Below are positions 45,199 to 52,588 of a DNA stretch of 64,000 nucleotides, in pieces (positions within the stretch are counted from its first letter, which is position 1; every line of letters begins with the position of its first letter). A program made the translations under genes and the position numbers. The stretch is taken from NCBI RefSeq assembly GCF_020171315.1, contig NZ_JAIUZP010000007.1, positions 186,001-250,000 on the forward strand, read 5' to 3'. This DNA comes from Pseudooceanicola nanhaiensis. GTDB taxonomy: Bacteria > Pseudomonadota > Alphaproteobacteria > Rhodobacterales > Rhodobacteraceae. The notes beneath the pieces were generated by a model. The model saw only the letters and a list, made by a program, of their open reading frames with translations, was not told the DNA's origin and did no database searches.

Positions 45199-46392
<1,194 letters not shown>

Positions 46393-46402
46393 AGGGGGTT
46401 AA

Positions 46403-47023
46403 CTAAACCCCTTTACACAAGATATTGTGGACGGGCTTGAAGGATCTTCTATGGTGCGGGGTTATCCCCAGATTTAGGAGGGCCTCGCGGTGGGCCTTGG
46501 AGGGGTAGCCTGCGTTCTTCTCCCAGCCATATCCGGGGAAGTGTTGCGCCAAATCCCGCATGATCTCGTCTCGGGCGATTTTGGCCATGATGGAGGCCGC
46601 CGCGATGGAGAGAGACAGCGCGTCGCCCTTCACGACGGTGGTCGCCGGGATCGTCAGGCCGCGCGGGATCATGTTGCCGTCGATCAGCAGGTGATCGGGC
46701 GCAACGGGCAGCCCGGCCACCGCCCGCTCCATGGCAAGGTGGCTGGCGCGCAGGATGTTCAGCTCGTCGATCTCCTCGACGCTGGCATGGGCCACGCAGA
46801 CCACCGCCACATCGGGCAGAATCGCGGCGAGCGCCTCGCGGCGCTTGGCCGTCAGCTTCTTGGAATCGTTCAGCCCCTCGGGCAAGCGCGACGGGTCGAG
46901 GATGACGGCGGCAGCGGTGACCGGACCGGCCAATGGGCCGCGGCCCACTTCGTCCACGCCGGCAATGAGGGTGGCGCCCGAGGCGCGGGCGGCGTCTTCG
47001 AAGGAGAAATCAGGTGTGCTCAT
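46403..47023 (-). CDS. rnhB: Ribonuclease HII
   Basis: 206 residues, cytosolic. Cleaves RNA of RNA-DNA hybrids, including single ribonucleotides in DNA. Seen: [20 protein letters not shown] with the DEVGRG catalytic acids, [44 protein letters not shown], and [23 protein letters not shown] 47023 is chosen because residues before it are not conserved and AAGGAG-like bases are absent; homologues start close to this Met. The stop lies 103 nt before ccrM. Confidence 0.96.
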
Positions 47024-47103
47024 GCCACGGGATGACCACAGCGGCGGGCCCCGCACAAGCTTTTCGGGTGCCGGACAGGCCTTTCGGGTGCCGCACAGGC
47101 GAA

Positions 47104-47149: not shown

Positions 47150-47617
47150 TCAGCGGCGGCCCGGGGTGCAGTAGGTGCGGGTGTCGTTGCGGCCGACGCT
47201 CTTGGTGTAGCAGGTGTTCACCGAGGACTGGCGGCGGTCATCCTTGTGGTCCCAGCGGCGGTCGTCGTGGCGCGACGTGTGGCGGCTGTCGCGATAATCG
47301 TACCGTTTCTCGTCGTGACGCTTGTCGTAGCCCTGCCAGCTGTTGCGGTAGACCGGCGCGGTTTGCGGCGCACGGTAGACAGGGGCACGGTAGACAGGGG
47401 CGCGGTAGACCGGGGCCGGGCGGGGATCGCGATAGACATAGCGCGGGCGGTCGTCCTTCTTGCTGTCGCTGATGGCGTTGCCGATCACGATCAGCGCGGT
47501 GGCACCGGCGAGCAGTTTGACCAGATCGTCGCCGTCACGGGCGCTGGCGGGAGCGGCGGCAAGGGTCGTCAGGGCGACGGCGGCTGCGGCCAGGGTGGTG
47601 ATGGTCTTGCGGAACAT
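47150..47617 (-). CDS. Exported repeat-containing protein of unknown function
   Basis: 155 residues. Signal peptide FRKTITTLAAAAVALTTLAA, cleaved near ASARDG. A short hydrophobic segment (LLAGATALIVIGNAIS) is followed by PRPAPVYRAPVYRAPVYRAP, a five-residue PVYRA repeat. A Tyr, Arg, His and Asp-rich region follows (DKRHDEKRYDYRDSRHTSRH), then a C-terminal part with two Cys (VNTCYTKSV and TYCTPGRR), likely a disulfide. I do not recognise a family. The composition suggests a surface or periplasmic protein able to bind metal or nucleic acid, a guess only. Confidence 0.7.
   Translation of the reverse strand: MFRKTITTLAAAAVALTTLAAAPASARDGDDLVKLLAGATALIVIGNAISDSKKDDRPRYVYRDPRPAPVYRAPVYRAPVYRAPQTAPVYRNSWQGYDKRHDEKRYDYRDSRHTSRHDDRRWDHKDDRRQSSVNTCYTKSVGRNDTRTYCTPGRR
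47371..47415 (-). repeat. Three tandem 15-bp units encoding PVYRA
   Basis: CACGGTAGACAGGGG occurs twice without a gap (47371-47385, 47386-47400) and a third time with two changes (47401-47415), giving the PVYRA repeat of the exported protein. Confidence 0.9.
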
Positions 47618-47714
47618 GGGCTGTCCTTTCGATGGGGCGTTGAGGCTGGCCCGGCGTGACTCGCTGTGTCGGACCTTGCCCCCTGACCATCGGACCGGAG
47701 GGCGAAATCGGGCA

Positions 47715-47768
47715 ATAACAGCGGGCTGTTATCGGATAACGAGAGGCTCAAACCCCTATTGTTATTGA
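47715..47768. promoter_or_regulatory. Cluster of GTTAT half-sites between divergent genes
   Basis: A perfect 18-bp palindrome ATAACAGC-GG-GCTGTTAT (47715-47732) overlaps GTTATC-G-GATAAC (47728-47740), and a further TTGTTATTG lies at 47759. Four half-sites in about 50 nt between two divergently transcribed genes look like an operator array. Confidence 0.5.
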
Positions 47769-47800
47769 ATATCGCGATGGCCGGTCGCATGGTTCCCGGC

Positions 47801-48088
47801 ATGAGCCATATCCTGCGCATATCCGGCCTTCTGCTGGCCCTCACGCTTCTGCCCGCCGCGGCACAGGCCGCCTGCTACGCCGATTATAAGGCAAAGCGGG
47901 ACCGCCCGCTTCAGTTGCACTATGGGGTCATGCAGGTGAGCAGCTGTTCGCCTGCCGAGGCCCGGCAGGAGGTCGCCGGGCGGCTTGCATCCGCGGGCTG
48001 GACGCTGCTCAATGTGCTCTCGACCTTCGATGAGAGCGGGCTGGAGCGCAGGAAAGCCGATGCAGGACAATACTATCTTCGCTTCTGA
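47801..48088 (+). CDS. Small exported protein overlapping the membrane winged-helix gene
   Basis: 95 residues from the preferred start. Signal peptide SHILRISGLLLALTLLPAAA, cleaved near AQAACY. The mature part has two Cys (AACYADY and VSSCSPAEA), ends YYLRF and contains the segment EARQEVAGRLASAGWTLLNV. ATGs at 47777 and 47789 are also in frame; none has a good ribosome-binding site. The 3' end overlaps the next gene by 29 nt in another frame. Function unknown. Close coupling suggests a periplasmic partner of the membrane protein that follows. Confidence 0.55.
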   Translation: MSHILRISGLLLALTLLPAAAQAACYADYKAKRDRPLQLHYGVMQVSSCSPAEARQEVAGRLASAGWTLLNVLSTFDESGLERRKADAGQYYLRF

Positions 48089-48764
48089 CGCGCGCCGCGC
48101 CGGCACAAGGGTCGTCGGCCTCGGGCTGGCGGCCATCGTCCTGATCCTGATGATCGCCGCGGGTTTTCTCTTTGCCACGCTGCCTGACGCCAACGCCTTC
48201 AACGACCGGGTCGAACGGATCTTCGTCGAGAACGACAACCTCACCGATCAGGCCGAGGTGAAGCTGCTGGAGATCCTCGCGCTCTCCGGCACCGCCTTTG
48301 CCGAGACGCTCACCAGCTACCGGATGGTGATCTTCGTGCTGCTGGTCTTTGCCGCGGCGCTGCTGCTGGCGGCGCTGGTGTTCCTGATCATGCTGGTCAC
48401 GCTGAACCGCCGCATGGCCCAGATCGAGAGGGCGGGCATCGAGGTGAATTCCCTCCTGATCAGCCGCGAGGAGAAGACGGTCTATCTCAACAACCTCGGC
48501 TTCAAGCTGACCGATGCGGCAATCGAGACGCTGTCGGTGCTGGCGGAGGCGCGGATGGATGACGAGGTTCTGTCCGGCGTGCAGATCGAGGCGATGATCT
48601 CCGGCAAGGCCGAGCAGGACTGCGACGAGGCCGCCGGGGCCACGCGGATCAAGCGGCTGCGCGACACTCTGGGCAACCAGTTGGTGAGCGAACTTCTGGT
48701 GAAGAACATCGCGCGGCGCGGCTACATGCTCTCGGTCGGCAAGGACGTGATCCGGGTGATCTGA
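48060..48764 (+). CDS. Membrane protein with C-terminal winged-helix-like domain
   Basis: 234 residues. Two helices, about residues 18-40 (VVGLGLAAIVLILMIAAGFL) and 90-115 (YRMVIFVLLVFAAALLLAAL), enclose a periplasmic segment of about 50 residues. The C-terminal 110 residues look like an OmpR-type winged helix: LLISREEKTVYLNNLGFKLT, AAIETLSVLAEARMDD, TRIKRLRDTLGNQLV and LVKNIARRGYMLSV, matching the recognition-helix and wing pattern of Trans_reg_C (RIxRLRxxLG and RGxGYxL). The order is TM-TM-wHTH, the reverse of ToxR, which starts with the DNA-binding domain. AGGAAAG precedes ATG 48060. Membrane-bound regulator is inference. Confidence 0.6.
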   Translation: MQDNTIFASDARRAGTRVVGLGLAAIVLILMIAAGFLFATLPDANAFNDRVERIFVENDNLTDQAEVKLLEILALSGTAFAETLTSYRMVIFVLLVFAAALLLAALVFLIMLVTLNRRMAQIERAGIEVNSLLISREEKTVYLNNLGFKLTDAAIETLSVLAEARMDDEVLSGVQIEAMISGKAEQDCDEAAGATRIKRLRDTLGNQLVSELLVKNIARRGYMLSVGKDVIRVI

Positions 48765-48955: not shown

Positions 48956-49396
48956 TCAGTTCGCCAGAAGCGCGGTCACGAGGCCGGCCACGGCGACGAC
49001 GGCCAGCGTATCGCTGTCCACGCGCACGACGCGGTCATTCAGGATGCGGTATTCCTGACCCTTCGGCGGCGAGGGCAGTTTCTTCAGCTGGGCCGAGCTG
49101 GGGCGCGGGGCGCTCTTGGCCGAGTCACCGCGATGCGGTGCCTGCTGGTTTTGGGATTGCTGCTGGGGCTTCTGCTGGTTGCCACCCGGTTTCTGGGCCT
49201 GCTGTTGCTGGCCGTTGCCGGGTTTCTGCGCCTGCTGGCCTTTGTGCTGGCCCTGATTCTGGCCCTGCTTTTGGGCATTGCCACAGGACTGGCCTTGGCA
49301 TTGTTGCTGGGGAGCGGGGTTGCCGGCGGCCATGGCGAGGGGGGCGGAGCCCATGACCGTGGTGGCGGCGAGCAGTGCGATGAGGGTCTTTTTCAT
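48956..49396 (-). CDS. RcnB-like exported Gln/Asn-rich protein
   Basis: 146 residues. Signal peptide KKTLIALLAATTVMGSAPLA, cleaved near AMAAGN. The mature part starts with CQGQSCGNAQKQGQNQGQHK, a Gln, Asn, Lys, Gly and Pro-rich low-complexity stretch of about 60 residues, and ends with a structured GQEYRILNDRVVRVDSDTLA and VVAVAGLVTALLAN, as in RcnB-type proteins of Rhodobacteraceae. E. coli RcnB modulates Ni and Co export, but this member lacks the rcnA partner nearby. Function open. Confidence 0.65.
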   Translation of the reverse strand: MKKTLIALLAATTVMGSAPLAMAAGNPAPQQQCQGQSCGNAQKQGQNQGQHKGQQAQKPGNGQQQQAQKPGGNQQKPQQQSQNQQAPHRGDSAKSAPRPSSAQLKKLPSPPKGQEYRILNDRVVRVDSDTLAVVAVAGLVTALLAN

Positions 49397-49576: not shown

Positions 49577-50485
49577 TCAGTCGAAACTCATCGGCAGGGC
49601 GAAGGAATAGCTCGCATTCGTCAGGCCCGAGGGCGCGGAGGGCATCCGGCCCGCGCGTTGCACGGCCTCCAGCGCGGCACGGTCGAGATCACCGTTTCCG
49701 GAGGATTTGGCGATTCCGGCGCGCGCCACCTGACCGGCGGGCGTGACGGTGATGCTGAGGATCACGCGCCCGCCGCTGCGCACCCCGCGGGGGAAGCGCT
49801 TGTAGCGGGCGATCTTGGCGCGGATCTTGGCGCCCCAGACGGTTTCGAGCTTGGCCGATTGCGCCTTGCTCATAGTCGCCGCTTCGGTCCGGCCTGAGTT
49901 GCCGGCAAAGGCGGAGCCGCCGCTGCCTGCGGATTTCTGCGCCGCTGAACCTGCGGAGAATTGCTGCGCCTTCTCGGCCACCTGTGCCTGCCGCTTCGGC
50001 TCGGGCTTGGGCTGAGGACGCTCTTGCGGGGGCTCGGGGCGTTGCGGCGGGCGGGGCGAGGATTGCGGGGCAAGCTCGCTCTGCACGATTTCCGGCTCGG
50101 GCTCGGGCTCGGGTTCCGGCGGCGGCGGCGTCGAGAGGTCGATCTCGGGCGTGTCGGGCCGCTCGTCCGTCATGCTGGGGAGCTGGATCGCGGCGCTCTG
50201 CACCGGGGCAAGGTCGGGCGGGGCGCTGTTCAGGCGCGGCGCCTCGGCCACCGGCGTCTCGACCGGCGGGGGCGCGATGTCCTGCGGGGTCTCCAGCTCG
50301 GGCGGGCGTTCCCATTGCGCGACCATGGTTTCCATCTGCGCTGTGGCGGCGGCCAGCGTCACCATGGCGTCGCCGCCCTGACCCCCGGCATCGGCCCCGT
50401 CCTCGGTCTCGAGCCGGAGCGCAAAGAGGATATGGACCCCCACGGCGAGCGCCACGAAGGCGAGGAGTTCGACGACACGGATCAT
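49577..50485 (-). CDS. TonB-type energy transducer
   Basis: 302 residues. One N-terminal helix (VVELLAFVALAVGVHILFAL) anchors it in the inner membrane. A long Pro/Glu-rich periplasmic spacer (PPPPEPEPEPEPEIV, then RPEPPQERPQPKPEPKR) leads to the C-terminal TonB domain (RAKIARYKRFPRGVRSGGRV, ILSITVTPAGQVARAGIAKS, LDRAALEAVQRAGRMPSAPS). It passes proton-motive energy from ExbB/ExbD to outer-membrane receptors. Its start overlaps the exbD stop by 4 nt. The transported substrate is suggested by the siderophore transporter genes upstream. Confidence 0.92.
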   Translation of the reverse strand: MIRVVELLAFVALAVGVHILFALRLETEDGADAGGQGGDAMVTLAAATAQMETMVAQWERPPELETPQDIAPPPVETPVAEAPRLNSAPPDLAPVQSAAIQLPSMTDERPDTPEIDLSTPPPPEPEPEPEPEIVQSELAPQSSPRPPQRPEPPQERPQPKPEPKRQAQVAEKAQQFSAGSAAQKSAGSGGSAFAGNSGRTEAATMSKAQSAKLETVWGAKIRAKIARYKRFPRGVRSGGRVILSITVTPAGQVARAGIAKSSGNGDLDRAALEAVQRAGRMPSAPSGLTNASYSFALPMSFD

Positions 50486-50883
50486 TGCGGCGCAATCACG
50501 AGAGAGACGTTGGAGAGCCCCGCCGCGGCGAGATCCTTGAGCAGGCGGGCGACAGCAGCCGCCTCGGCCCCCTGATCGGCGCGCAGCTGCGGGGCGGGGG
50601 CGTCAGGCCCCGCGGCATCCGCGGCGGCAGCCATCGCGGCGATCGCCGCCTCGCCCCGCAGGTCCTCGAAGGCGATCTCGCCCTCGGCGGAGTAGAAGAG
50701 CACCGGCGCGTTCTCGGCCTCCTCGCCGCTGGTGGCGACGGGGGGGGCGACCTCGATCGGCTCCGGCGGGGCGAGGCGCGAGGTCATCAGGAAGAAGATC
50801 AGCAGCAGGAAGACCACGTTGATCATCGGCACGATGGATTCGCCGCGATCCTTCTTGGGCGGGGGGGCGAAATTCAGGCTCAT
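50482..50883 (-). CDS. ExbD/TolR family protein, second copy
   Basis: 133 residues. One N-terminal helix with the conserved Asn or Asp replaced region ESIVPMINVVFLLLIFFLMT: family members usually have PMIDVVF; here PMINVVF carries Asn at the proton-carrying position. The periplasmic domain follows (FYSAEGEIAFEDLRGEAAIA, VSLVIAPQ). The Asp-to-Asn change in the membrane helix could affect proton transfer, so the other ExbD may be the active one. Overlaps both neighbours by 4 nt. Confidence 0.88.
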   Translation of the reverse strand: MSLNFAPPPKKDRGESIVPMINVVFLLLIFFLMTSRLAPPEPIEVAPPVATSGEEAENAPVLFYSAEGEIAFEDLRGEAAIAAMAAAADAAGPDAPAPQLRADQGAEAAAVARLLKDLAAAGLSNVSLVIAPQ

Positions 50884-51263
50884 TCGACCAGCACCAGAGC
50901 TGTATAGCCCGCGCCGCGCAGGGCGGTGCCGATGCTGACGATGGCCTGCAGGTCCGCGCCGTCGCGGCCGCGCAGGATGATCGGATCGGTGGGGGCCTCG
51001 GTCAGATCGGCCATGGCGGCGATCAGCGCGGCTTCGTCCATCGGCTGGCCGTTCAGGCGCAGCCCATCAGGGGTCACGTCCACCAGCCGCGGCGGGCCCT
51101 CATAGGCGGTGCCCCCGCCCGAGGCCAGCGGCATCGGCAGCACGTGATCCGTGCCAAAGCGCGAGGCCAGCATGAAGAAGACCAGCAGCAGGAAGACCAC
51201 GTCGATCATCGGCGTCAGGCTGGGCCTGCGGCGACGCCGGGGTGGGTCCGAGAAGAGGGTCAT
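50880..51263 (-). CDS. ExbD/TolR family protein, first copy
   Basis: 127 residues. Helix RRRRRPSLTPMIDVVFLLLV followed by FFMLASRF, with the canonical Asp (PMIDVVF) that carries protons. The periplasmic part (LVDVTPDGLRLNGQPMDEAA, DPIILRGRDGADLQAIVSIG) has the normal fold. The start overlaps the exbB stop by 4 nt and its stop overlaps the second exbD start. Confidence 0.9.
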   Translation of the reverse strand: MTLFSDPPRRRRRPSLTPMIDVVFLLLVFFMLASRFGTDHVLPMPLASGGGTAYEGPPRLVDVTPDGLRLNGQPMDEAALIAAMADLTEAPTDPIILRGRDGADLQAIVSIGTALRGAGYTALVLVE

Positions 51264-52333
51264 TGCGCGGCAACGTCCATGTCTTCGGCGTAATCCTGCG
51301 GCATCTGGCGGGGCAGGTTGCTGCCGCGCCCGGCGATGAAGATCCGCGCGGCGAGGTCTTCCATGTCCTGACGCACGCTGTCGATCACGGCCTCGAACCA
51401 CGTCAGGGCGGCAGAGGCGGGGATCGCCACGGCCATACCGGCGGCGGTGGTCAGAAGCGCCTCCCAGATACCGCCTGCGAGCATGGCGGGATCCGCGTTG
51501 TTGCCCGCCTCCTGCAGCGCCTGGAAGGCCGAGATCATGCCCAGAACCGTGCCCAGCAGACCCAGCAGCGGGGCAATCGTCGCGATCAGTTCCAGCGGGC
51601 GCAGGCCGGTGCCGGCGGCCCCCAGCAGGCGCTTGGCCACGCGCGAGGCTTCTTCGCGGGCGCTGTCTTCGGGGAGGTCGAGGCTGGCGCGCATGGTGGC
51701 GGCGGTCAGGCGCGAGCGCAGGCCGCGCCGCTTGGCAACCATCTGGTAGGCCTGCCGGGTCTGGCCTGCCTCCCAGTATTCCACCGCCTTGCGCGAGGCG
51801 CGGCGCGACCATGCGCCGGCGATGAAGAAGCGCCAGATCTTCCACAGGATCAGTGCCACTGTGATCACCGAAAGCGCGGCAATCGCCCAAATCGACGGGC
51901 CGCCATCGACGAGGAAGCTGTGTGCACGGCCCGCGGCCTCGGTCACCGCGGCCTGCGGATCGTCGAGGAAGATGTCGGTGAGGGGCACGGGCTCTTCGGC
52001 GGGGGCCTCCGCGGTAAGTTCGGTGGCGGCCTCAGCCGTGGCGAGGTCGGTTGCCGGCGCAACCGCCTCTGCAGGGGCGGCGCTGTCTGCCGCGGGCGTC
52101 GCCGCTTCCGCTGCGGGGGCCTCGGCGCCGGGCAGGGCGCGCTGCGGGGCGGCCTCGTTACTGGCGGCGGGCAGCGCGGTGCCCTGATCCGCCGGGGCGG
52201 ACGGGGCGCTCAGGCCGGGCATCTCGGTGCTGACGCTGGGGGCCGCATCCTGCGCCATCGCGGCGCTGCCAAGGCCGAATGCCAGCAGGGCCGCCGGGAC
52301 GATCCGAAGTTCCGAGTTCCAGTTGCGCGCCAT
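51260..52333 (-). CDS. exbB: ExbB/MotA/TolQ-family proton channel
   Basis: 357 residues, first gene of the exbB-exbD-exbD-tonB unit. A signal peptide (ELRIVPAALLAFGLGSAAMA) and an Ala/Pro-rich periplasmic extension (about residues 30-150, AEAPAAEAATPAADSAAPAE) precede the three-helix channel domain (PSIWAIAALSVITVALILWK, LELIATIAPLLGLLGTVLGM, AGGIWEALLTTAAGMAVAIP). The extension is typical of longer ExbB forms. ATG 52333 has AAAGGGGG upstream. A 290-nt region upstream holds an iron-box-like site. Confidence 0.93.
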   Translation of the reverse strand: MARNWNSELRIVPAALLAFGLGSAAMAQDAAPSVSTEMPGLSAPSAPADQGTALPAASNEAAPQRALPGAEAPAAEAATPAADSAAPAEAVAPATDLATAEAATELTAEAPAEEPVPLTDIFLDDPQAAVTEAAGRAHSFLVDGGPSIWAIAALSVITVALILWKIWRFFIAGAWSRRASRKAVEYWEAGQTRQAYQMVAKRRGLRSRLTAATMRASLDLPEDSAREEASRVAKRLLGAAGTGLRPLELIATIAPLLGLLGTVLGMISAFQALQEAGNNADPAMLAGGIWEALLTTAAGMAVAIPASAALTWFEAVIDSVRQDMEDLAARIFIAGRGSNLPRQMPQDYAEDMDVAAQ

Positions 52334-52561
52334 GAATGGCCCCCTTTGATGTGCTCGGCCGCGCGGCTTGGCGCGGGCCTCTGGCCCGGCAGGCCCGCCG
52401 CAGCGGTCGCCTGCACAGGGTGCGTCGTACAACCGGTCCCCGTCAAAGTGCAATTCCGCACGGGGTGACCCGTGAAGGCAAGCGGCTGACCGGAGGCGGC
52501 ACTCTATGTCGAGGCTGGCGGGCGAGGGACGACTCGCCGCGGCTGGCGGGTTAACTGCGCT

Positions 52562-52588
52562 GCTATATAAGCTGACACAAATGGTCAA
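52562..52588 (-). promoter_or_regulatory. Promoter-like site with TGA-N9-TCA iron-box motif upstream of exbB
   Basis: TGACACAAATGGTCA (52573-52587) fits TGA-N9-TCA, the RirA iron-responsive operator consensus, and overlaps a minus-strand promoter-like pair (TTGACC at 52588-52583, TATAGC at 52567-52562, 15-nt spacer). It lies about 230 nt upstream of exbB, in the only AT-rich part of the gap after the ABC ATPase gene. Confidence 0.5.

Follow-up and report, generated by a model that had tools for sequence, protein, structure and literature searches.

Two adjacent genes of Pseudooceanicola nanhaiensis probably encode a transmembrane transcription regulator and its exported partner, a pair that would regulate its own expression and control a small envelope regulon. 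They lie in a stretch of 64,000 nucleotides (hereafter the window), which is part of contig 7 of a 4.8-Mb genome. The regulator carries an OmpR-type winged helix behind two transmembrane (TM) helices, and across relatives its gene is accompanied by the partner gene and by a conserved palindromic operator. The genes concerned are:

48060 to 48764, plus strand: regulator gene, 234 aa
47801 to 48088, plus strand: partner gene, 95 aa, with a signal-peptide-like start (judged by eye) and conserved C25 and C49; overlaps the regulator gene by 29 nt
47150 to 47617, minus strand: divergent gene for a small, apparently exported protein; its family is found in 78 of 80 loci, and it borders the intergenic operator region

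Layout and fold of the regulator

The initial annotation had placed an open reading frame at 48060-48764, with two helices ahead of a C-terminal domain, and both observations hold: translation returns these coordinates, and hydropathy gives two hydrophobic stretches, at residues ~18-40 and ~89-115, N-terminal to the winged helix. The resulting layout is TM1 (~18-40), a predicted exported loop (~41-88), TM2 (~89-115) and an OmpR-type winged helix (~128-228). The closest named homologue, from Maritimibacter alkaliphilus, is 97% identical. By charge count, the loop at 41-88 is acidic (4 K/R, 9 D/E), and the N-terminus and the segment after TM2 have 3 K/R and 2 D/E each; charge averages across 61 homologues agree with these single-sequence counts for the loop and its flanks. 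Under the positive-inside rule, these counts have both ends of the protein read as cytoplasmic. Going solely by charge, this suggests a cytoplasmic winged helix and a loop outside.

ToxR has an N-terminal winged helix, one TM helix and a C-terminal periplasmic domain. Here, the winged helix (~128-228) is instead C-terminal, behind two TM helices, and the part outside would be a loop of ~48 residues, so that the protein does not have a ToxR-like layout. The topology had earlier been described as opposite to that of ToxR, which is right for the domain order but not for the membrane side, as the DNA-binding domain is expected to be cytoplasmic in both. With a predicted TM region and a predicted DNA-binding domain in one protein, the regulator falls under the definition of transmembrane transcription regulators (TTRs) given in the accessible part of a survey, in which 17% of them have two TM regions (PMC10269533).

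An OmpR-like winged helix had been proposed from two sequence patterns, RIKRLRDTLG (residues 196-205) and ARRGYMLSV (residues 218-226), and profile and structure comparisons bear this out. The regulator alone scores 18.7 bits against Trans_reg_C (PF00486; E 0.0019), below the curated cut-off of 26.2, and 61/61 aligned homologues match the family at E <=0.1, the best at 4e-6. In the AlphaFold model, built on 61 sequences (mean pLDDT 69, pTM 0.45), the fold comes out as a winged helix, in which three short strands and a pair of helices lead to the recognition helix at 190-204, followed by a further short helix and a hairpin at 213-224. Ten-residue means of pLDDT are 78-86 across residues 151-200, and residues 207-219 are of low confidence (pLDDT <50). 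The best 35 of 139 Foldseek matches are all OmpR/PhoB-type effector or ToxR/CadC DNA-binding domains, with E from 1.4e-3 to 0.15 and none <=0.001. Among the matches listed by VIA-align, 50/50 are OmpR/PhoB-type effector domains with Z of 9.4-11.6, led by RpaA (Z 11.6 over 96 residues at 2.5 A); CadC reaches 10.2 and ToxR 9.6. Sequence searches of solved structures gave no relative with the regulator profile and a single match (RstA, E 0.84) with the domain alone.

The regulator thus shares the effector-domain fold and the recognition-helix pattern of the OmpR/PhoB-family response regulators, but has two TM helices in place of their receiver domain. No receiver-domain family matched it, and the alignments with response-regulator models begin no earlier than model residue 110 and cover regulator residues 112 onward. 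LytTR gave no match at E <=1.

The recognition helix is the best-conserved segment of the regulator, with a mean majority fraction of 0.96 against 0.56-0.88 elsewhere (the inter-TM loop has 0.84 and TM1 0.64) in a set of 159 loci that includes close relatives and duplicates, the P. nanhaiensis gene being present three times. R196, K198, R199, L200, R201 and D202 are invariant in 158/158 aligned copies. Within the winged helix, 157/159 loci keep Cys188, which lies between helices 2 and 3; a role as a redox switch is conceivable.

The initial annotation had left two options for this domain, a transmembrane regulator or a protein-contact module. A winged helix that has lost DNA binding and serves for protein contact at the membrane would fit both the single-sequence Trans_reg_C score below the cut-off and the slightly acidic character of the domain (14 K/R and 16 D/E in the P. 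nanhaiensis protein). We nevertheless consider it very improbable, given that four of the invariant residues in the best-conserved segment are basic (R196, K198, R199 and R201) and that a conserved operator accompanies the regulator gene. The transmembrane regulator is favoured because the recognition helix is so well conserved and because the palindromic operator tracks the gene across genomes (see below).

The layout had also been called unusual. This is fair for an OmpR-type fold in TM-first order, but HigX and Rsp are precedents for membrane regulators that end in their DNA-binding domain. Rsp is a chimera of PilS- and PilR-type parts and does not have an OmpR-type winged helix. In the accessible part of the survey, Rsp of Neisseria gonorrhoeae has its membrane part N-terminal and its DNA-binding part C-terminal (PMC10269533), the same order as in the regulator. 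In HigX of Caulobacter crescentus, a LytTR domain comes after four TM helices, with no apparent periplasmic domain; the protein sits at the cell periphery and binds the promoters of envelope-related genes, according to the portion of the report available (PMC13384398). HigX and the regulator are alike in being alphaproteobacterial, in having the TM part first and the DNA-binding domain last, in their envelope-related targets (predicted ones in our case) and in an inverted repeat with a TGTTA core. They differ in the four TM helices, the LytTR domain and the gene neighbourhood of HigX, for which that portion describes no exported partner.

Partner gene, neighbourhood and distribution

A partner homologue lies directly upstream of the regulator in 80/80 named loci, with the 29-nt overlap in 44/80 (start codons were picked automatically). 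Using a profile of 31 partners, we found the partner in 18/18 genomes that have the regulator (P. nanhaiensis itself and 17 selected for divergence) and in 0/62 that lack it, the latter from the 295-genome family sample described below. The 18 include one genome (G142) where the partner match is weak and has one stop. Gene order varies: the two genes face each other in G148, lie on different contigs in G041 and are separated by ~4 kb in G184 (locus L216), where the operator stays beside the partner. In a set of 30 diverged regulator loci, three had no partner match.

From its signal-peptide-like start, the partner is apparently exported. Its model (pLDDT 82) has a beta-beta-alpha-beta-alpha order and two conserved cysteines. 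It has no informative match among solved structures (best Z 6.0), and the P. nanhaiensis protein has no Pfam match at E <=0.1. These two blanks leave some room for a partner without any part in signalling, the genes being merely co-transcribed. We regard this as unlikely, since the co-occurrence is complete (18/18 vs 0/62) and holds even where the genes are rearranged or separated, as in G148 and G184 (L216).

This arrangement invites comparison with ToxR/ToxS, TcpP/TcpH and CadC, which share with the present system an OmpR-type winged helix, an inner-membrane anchor and a part outside the cytoplasm. ToxS and TcpH are proteins associated with ToxR and TcpP (Table 1 in the accessible part of PMC10269533). 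A partner, which not all ToxR-like members have, is present here as a gene upstream of the regulator in every named locus, a likeness of gene arrangement alone. By analogy, the logic of the system may be ToxRS-like, yet the regulator is not a ToxR member.

The product of the divergent gene has no Pfam match at E <=0.01, and the gene is a possible further target of the regulator. Beyond it, genes that we take from their sequences to encode RNase HII and a CcrM-type DNA methyltransferase stand beside the system in 75/80 and 73/80 named loci, respectively (some contigs are cut). Among the conserved neighbours in the 80 named loci, we recognised no other transcription factor. The flanking genes in the window are:

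45199 to 47056, minus strand: CcrM-type DNA methyltransferase and RNase HII (presumed), adjoining the system
48956 to 49396, minus strand: small protein with a signal-peptide-like start, beside the TonB/ExbD/ExbB-like genes
49577 to 52588, minus strand: presumably TonB-, ExbD- and ExbB-like genes, recognised from their sequences; downstream of the system and on the opposite strand

The regulator is matched, in one copy each, in 233/295 genomes of its own family (294 genera represented). A second draw from an order-level search, in which every genome drawn belonged to the same family, gave 179/196. Class-wide, there was a match in 5/385 genomes, each of them from the regulator's own family; none was seen in the remaining 380, of which the 20 that were listed belong to other families. 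The homologue set omits 15/110 (minus-strand matches), and the locus set finally used comprises 113 loci.

Operator boxes, promoter and candidate targets

The intergenic region upstream of the partner gene contains:

47710 to 47719, no strand assigned: conserved box 1, GGGCAATAAC, half-site-like and inverted, seen by eye in the promoters of the named loci
47728 to 47740, no strand assigned: operator box 2, GTTATCGGATAAC, the sole exact GTTATNNNATAAC in the 4.8-Mb genome
47761 to 47773, no strand assigned: operator box 3, GTTATTGAATATC, overlapping the predicted -35 element
47765 to 47793, plus strand: predicted promoter, with -35 TTGAAT (47765-47770), a 17-bp spacer and -10 CATGGT (47788-47793)

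Paired palindromes like GTTATCNGATAAC, each with <=2 mismatches, occur upstream of the partner in 76/80 loci, compared with 1/800 shuffled promoters. The best GTTAT-N3-ATAAC match within 200 nt has 0, 1 and 2 mismatches in 36, 40 and 4 of the 80 named loci, respectively; a mirrored control pattern reached two mismatches in 3/80 and never fewer. Both box positions could be assigned in 78/80 loci (<=3 mismatches), being 31-33 bp apart in 52 and 42-43 bp apart in 26, two classes that differ by one helical turn. Diverged homologues retain a box with <=2 mismatches in 23/30 cases, and seven are without one. Departures from the box often preserve its symmetry (GCTAT-N3-ATAGC, GATAT-N3-ATATC), a pattern that recognition by a symmetric dimer would be expected to leave. 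The usual targets of OmpR-type domains are direct repeats, unlike the inverted repeats seen here. Operator and recognition helix are both nearly constant across loci.

The -35 TTG falls within the second box of the pair in 78/78 loci. The -10 element follows CANNNT, with the A in 77/78 and the final T in 71/78, and the distance from the -35 to the partner ATG is 35 or 36 nt in 72/78. This fixed distance (47765-47801 in the window, from the -35 to the ATG) puts the predicted start at or adjoining the ATG; the partner gene is thus probably transcribed as a leaderless mRNA.

To what extent do the boxes belong to the regulator? In the P. nanhaiensis genome, the exact GTTATNNNATAAC occurs once, at the regulator operon. 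Allowing one mismatch adds five places, of which one is the second operon box and two resemble Zur boxes; these six compare with seven for the reversed pattern, so sites with one mismatch are not in excess in this genome, and it is the exact and symmetric forms that stand out. The symmetric form GNTATYNRATANC, a pattern defined after its DUF5333 site was seen, occurs three times (reversed control: once), at both operon boxes and before a DUF5333-like gene. Within the window there are two operator matches where 0.09 are expected. Across the family sample, the exact GTTATYNRATAAC is present in 93/233 genomes with the regulator and 10/62 without it, the reversed pattern in 21/233 and 16/62. Genomes without the regulator hence show no excess (10/62 vs 16/62 for the reversed pattern), and 140/233 regulator genomes have no exact site. 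The genomes compared are related by descent and so do not count as independent samples.

Candidate targets came from 52 loci around exact off-position sites, 20 chosen by eye among the matches listed and 32 from a second search, which covered just genomes already with a site and so yields no rate. Six of the 52 are the partner gene itself (L171, L176, L179, L200, L214, L216). Of the remaining 46 off-operon sites examined, 19 precede four recurrent families of envelope or exterior genes: curlin-repeat genes (seven: L166, L169, L181, L186, L191, L192 and L201, with L191 and L192 from one genome), DUF5333 genes (seven: L185, L187, L188, L205, L208, L211, L215), a small lipoprotein-like gene near a hemF-like gene (three: L172, L183, L212) and a glycine-zipper lipoprotein-like gene (two: L174, L207). 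The assignments of L166, L185 and L207 come from Pfam. The other 27/46 sites form a mixed set without a recurrent target family, several of them within reading frames, from which we conclude that chance sites are included among them.

One of these families, DUF5333, is a Pfam family of unknown function. The P. nanhaiensis representative and a curlin-repeat cluster are located as follows:

Contig 6, 391700-393700 (locus L278): DUF5333-like gene with the symmetric variant box GCTATTGGATAGC upstream
Contig 10, 116000-128500 (locus L279): curlin-repeat cluster with 22 matches, one frame being open for ~1006 codons

The third GNTATYNRATANC site starts 94 nt upstream of the ATG of this DUF5333-like gene. 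In the best 30 of 106 matching genomes (a set that includes G031, first met via its site), the DUF5333 promoter has a box with <=2 mismatches in 20/30 cases and with <=1 mismatch in 13/30, compared with 19/600 and 0/600 shuffles of these promoters. Taking these 30 together with eight further listed genomes without the regulator, the box is kept in 20/27 genomes with the regulator and 3/11 without it (Fisher p 0.012, kinship ignored). The three exceptions are 77, 82 and 86% complete and may miss the regulator through incompleteness, an explanation found afterwards.

For curli the picture is different between P. nanhaiensis and its relatives. Its own curlin-repeat locus has no box with <=2 mismatches across the 12.5 kb examined, and curli control in this genome was therefore rejected; the curli link accordingly comes from relatives only, where boxes are patchy across 30 curlin loci.

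It is also conceivable that another factor binds the boxes, such as a HigX-like membrane LytTR protein, ChvI or Zur, the regulator being merely a target or using other sites. Zur boxes share the GTTAT-N3-ATAAC frame, and two sites in the P. nanhaiensis genome with an A-N-T centre, GTTATACTATTAC and GTTATAATATCAC, look to us like Zur boxes; one precedes what is presumably a CobW-like GTPase gene. These sites are at separate places from the operator, however, and Zur was rejected as the operator-binding factor on this ground. HigX regulates envelope genes, and its motif in the available portion of its report (PMC13384398), ATGTTASC/GSTACCAT, is likewise an inverted repeat built on a TGTTA core, but the cores are 4 bases apart in that motif and 5 here. 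The 27/46 off-operon sites without a recurrent target also speak for some other factor. Against it, the boxes track the regulator gene across genomes, and the exact site in P. nanhaiensis is found at the operon only; we give this explanation a low probability and take the regulator itself as the likely reader of the boxes.

Proposed mechanism and its meaning

We propose that the regulator resides in the inner membrane, that its C-terminal OmpR-type winged helix faces the cytoplasm, and that the protein binds, probably as a dimer, to GTTATYNRATAAC palindromes. The 95-aa, apparently exported partner would most likely sense an envelope signal, or pass one to the conserved ~48-residue loop. Partner and loop would thus form the sensing side, from which the signal would travel along both TM helices and reach the winged helix; the latter would bind the paired palindromes from the membrane. 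The position of box 3 on the -35 element would fit a repressor, or a PhoB-like activator that contacts sigma.

We predict that the regulator acts on its own operon and perhaps on the divergent gene, with the DUF5333-like gene as an additional target in the P. nanhaiensis genome; in relatives, the targets would also include DUF5333 proteins, curlins and small lipoproteins. Such a very small set of targets, mostly adjoining the regulator's own gene, would suit a factor that cannot diffuse freely.

On balance, although with less confidence than in the regulator and partner as such, we lean towards a broader reading: a two-gene membrane signalling system in most sampled Rhodobacteraceae, in which an exported sensor would be coupled to an OmpR-type regulator of reverse domain order, and the regulator would read a dedicated palindrome; the system would autoregulate from a leaderless promoter and control surface structures such as curli. 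In the open-licence literature, a scope that leaves most subscription journals outside, we found no paper on the regulator-partner pair or on the operator string GTTATCCGATAAC. The general kind of protein is already known from the available parts of the TTR survey (PMC10269533) and the HigX report (PMC13384398). What sets the present protein apart is an OmpR-type winged helix in TM-first order, together with its own operator and a partner that is ever-present in the co-occurrence sample.

The field has yet to explain how a membrane-bound transcription factor locates its DNA. With few predicted targets, a sharp operator, a partner gene and widespread marine hosts, this candidate makes the question directly testable. 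Several genes without annotation in these bacteria, DUF5333 included, also gain a possible context from the system.
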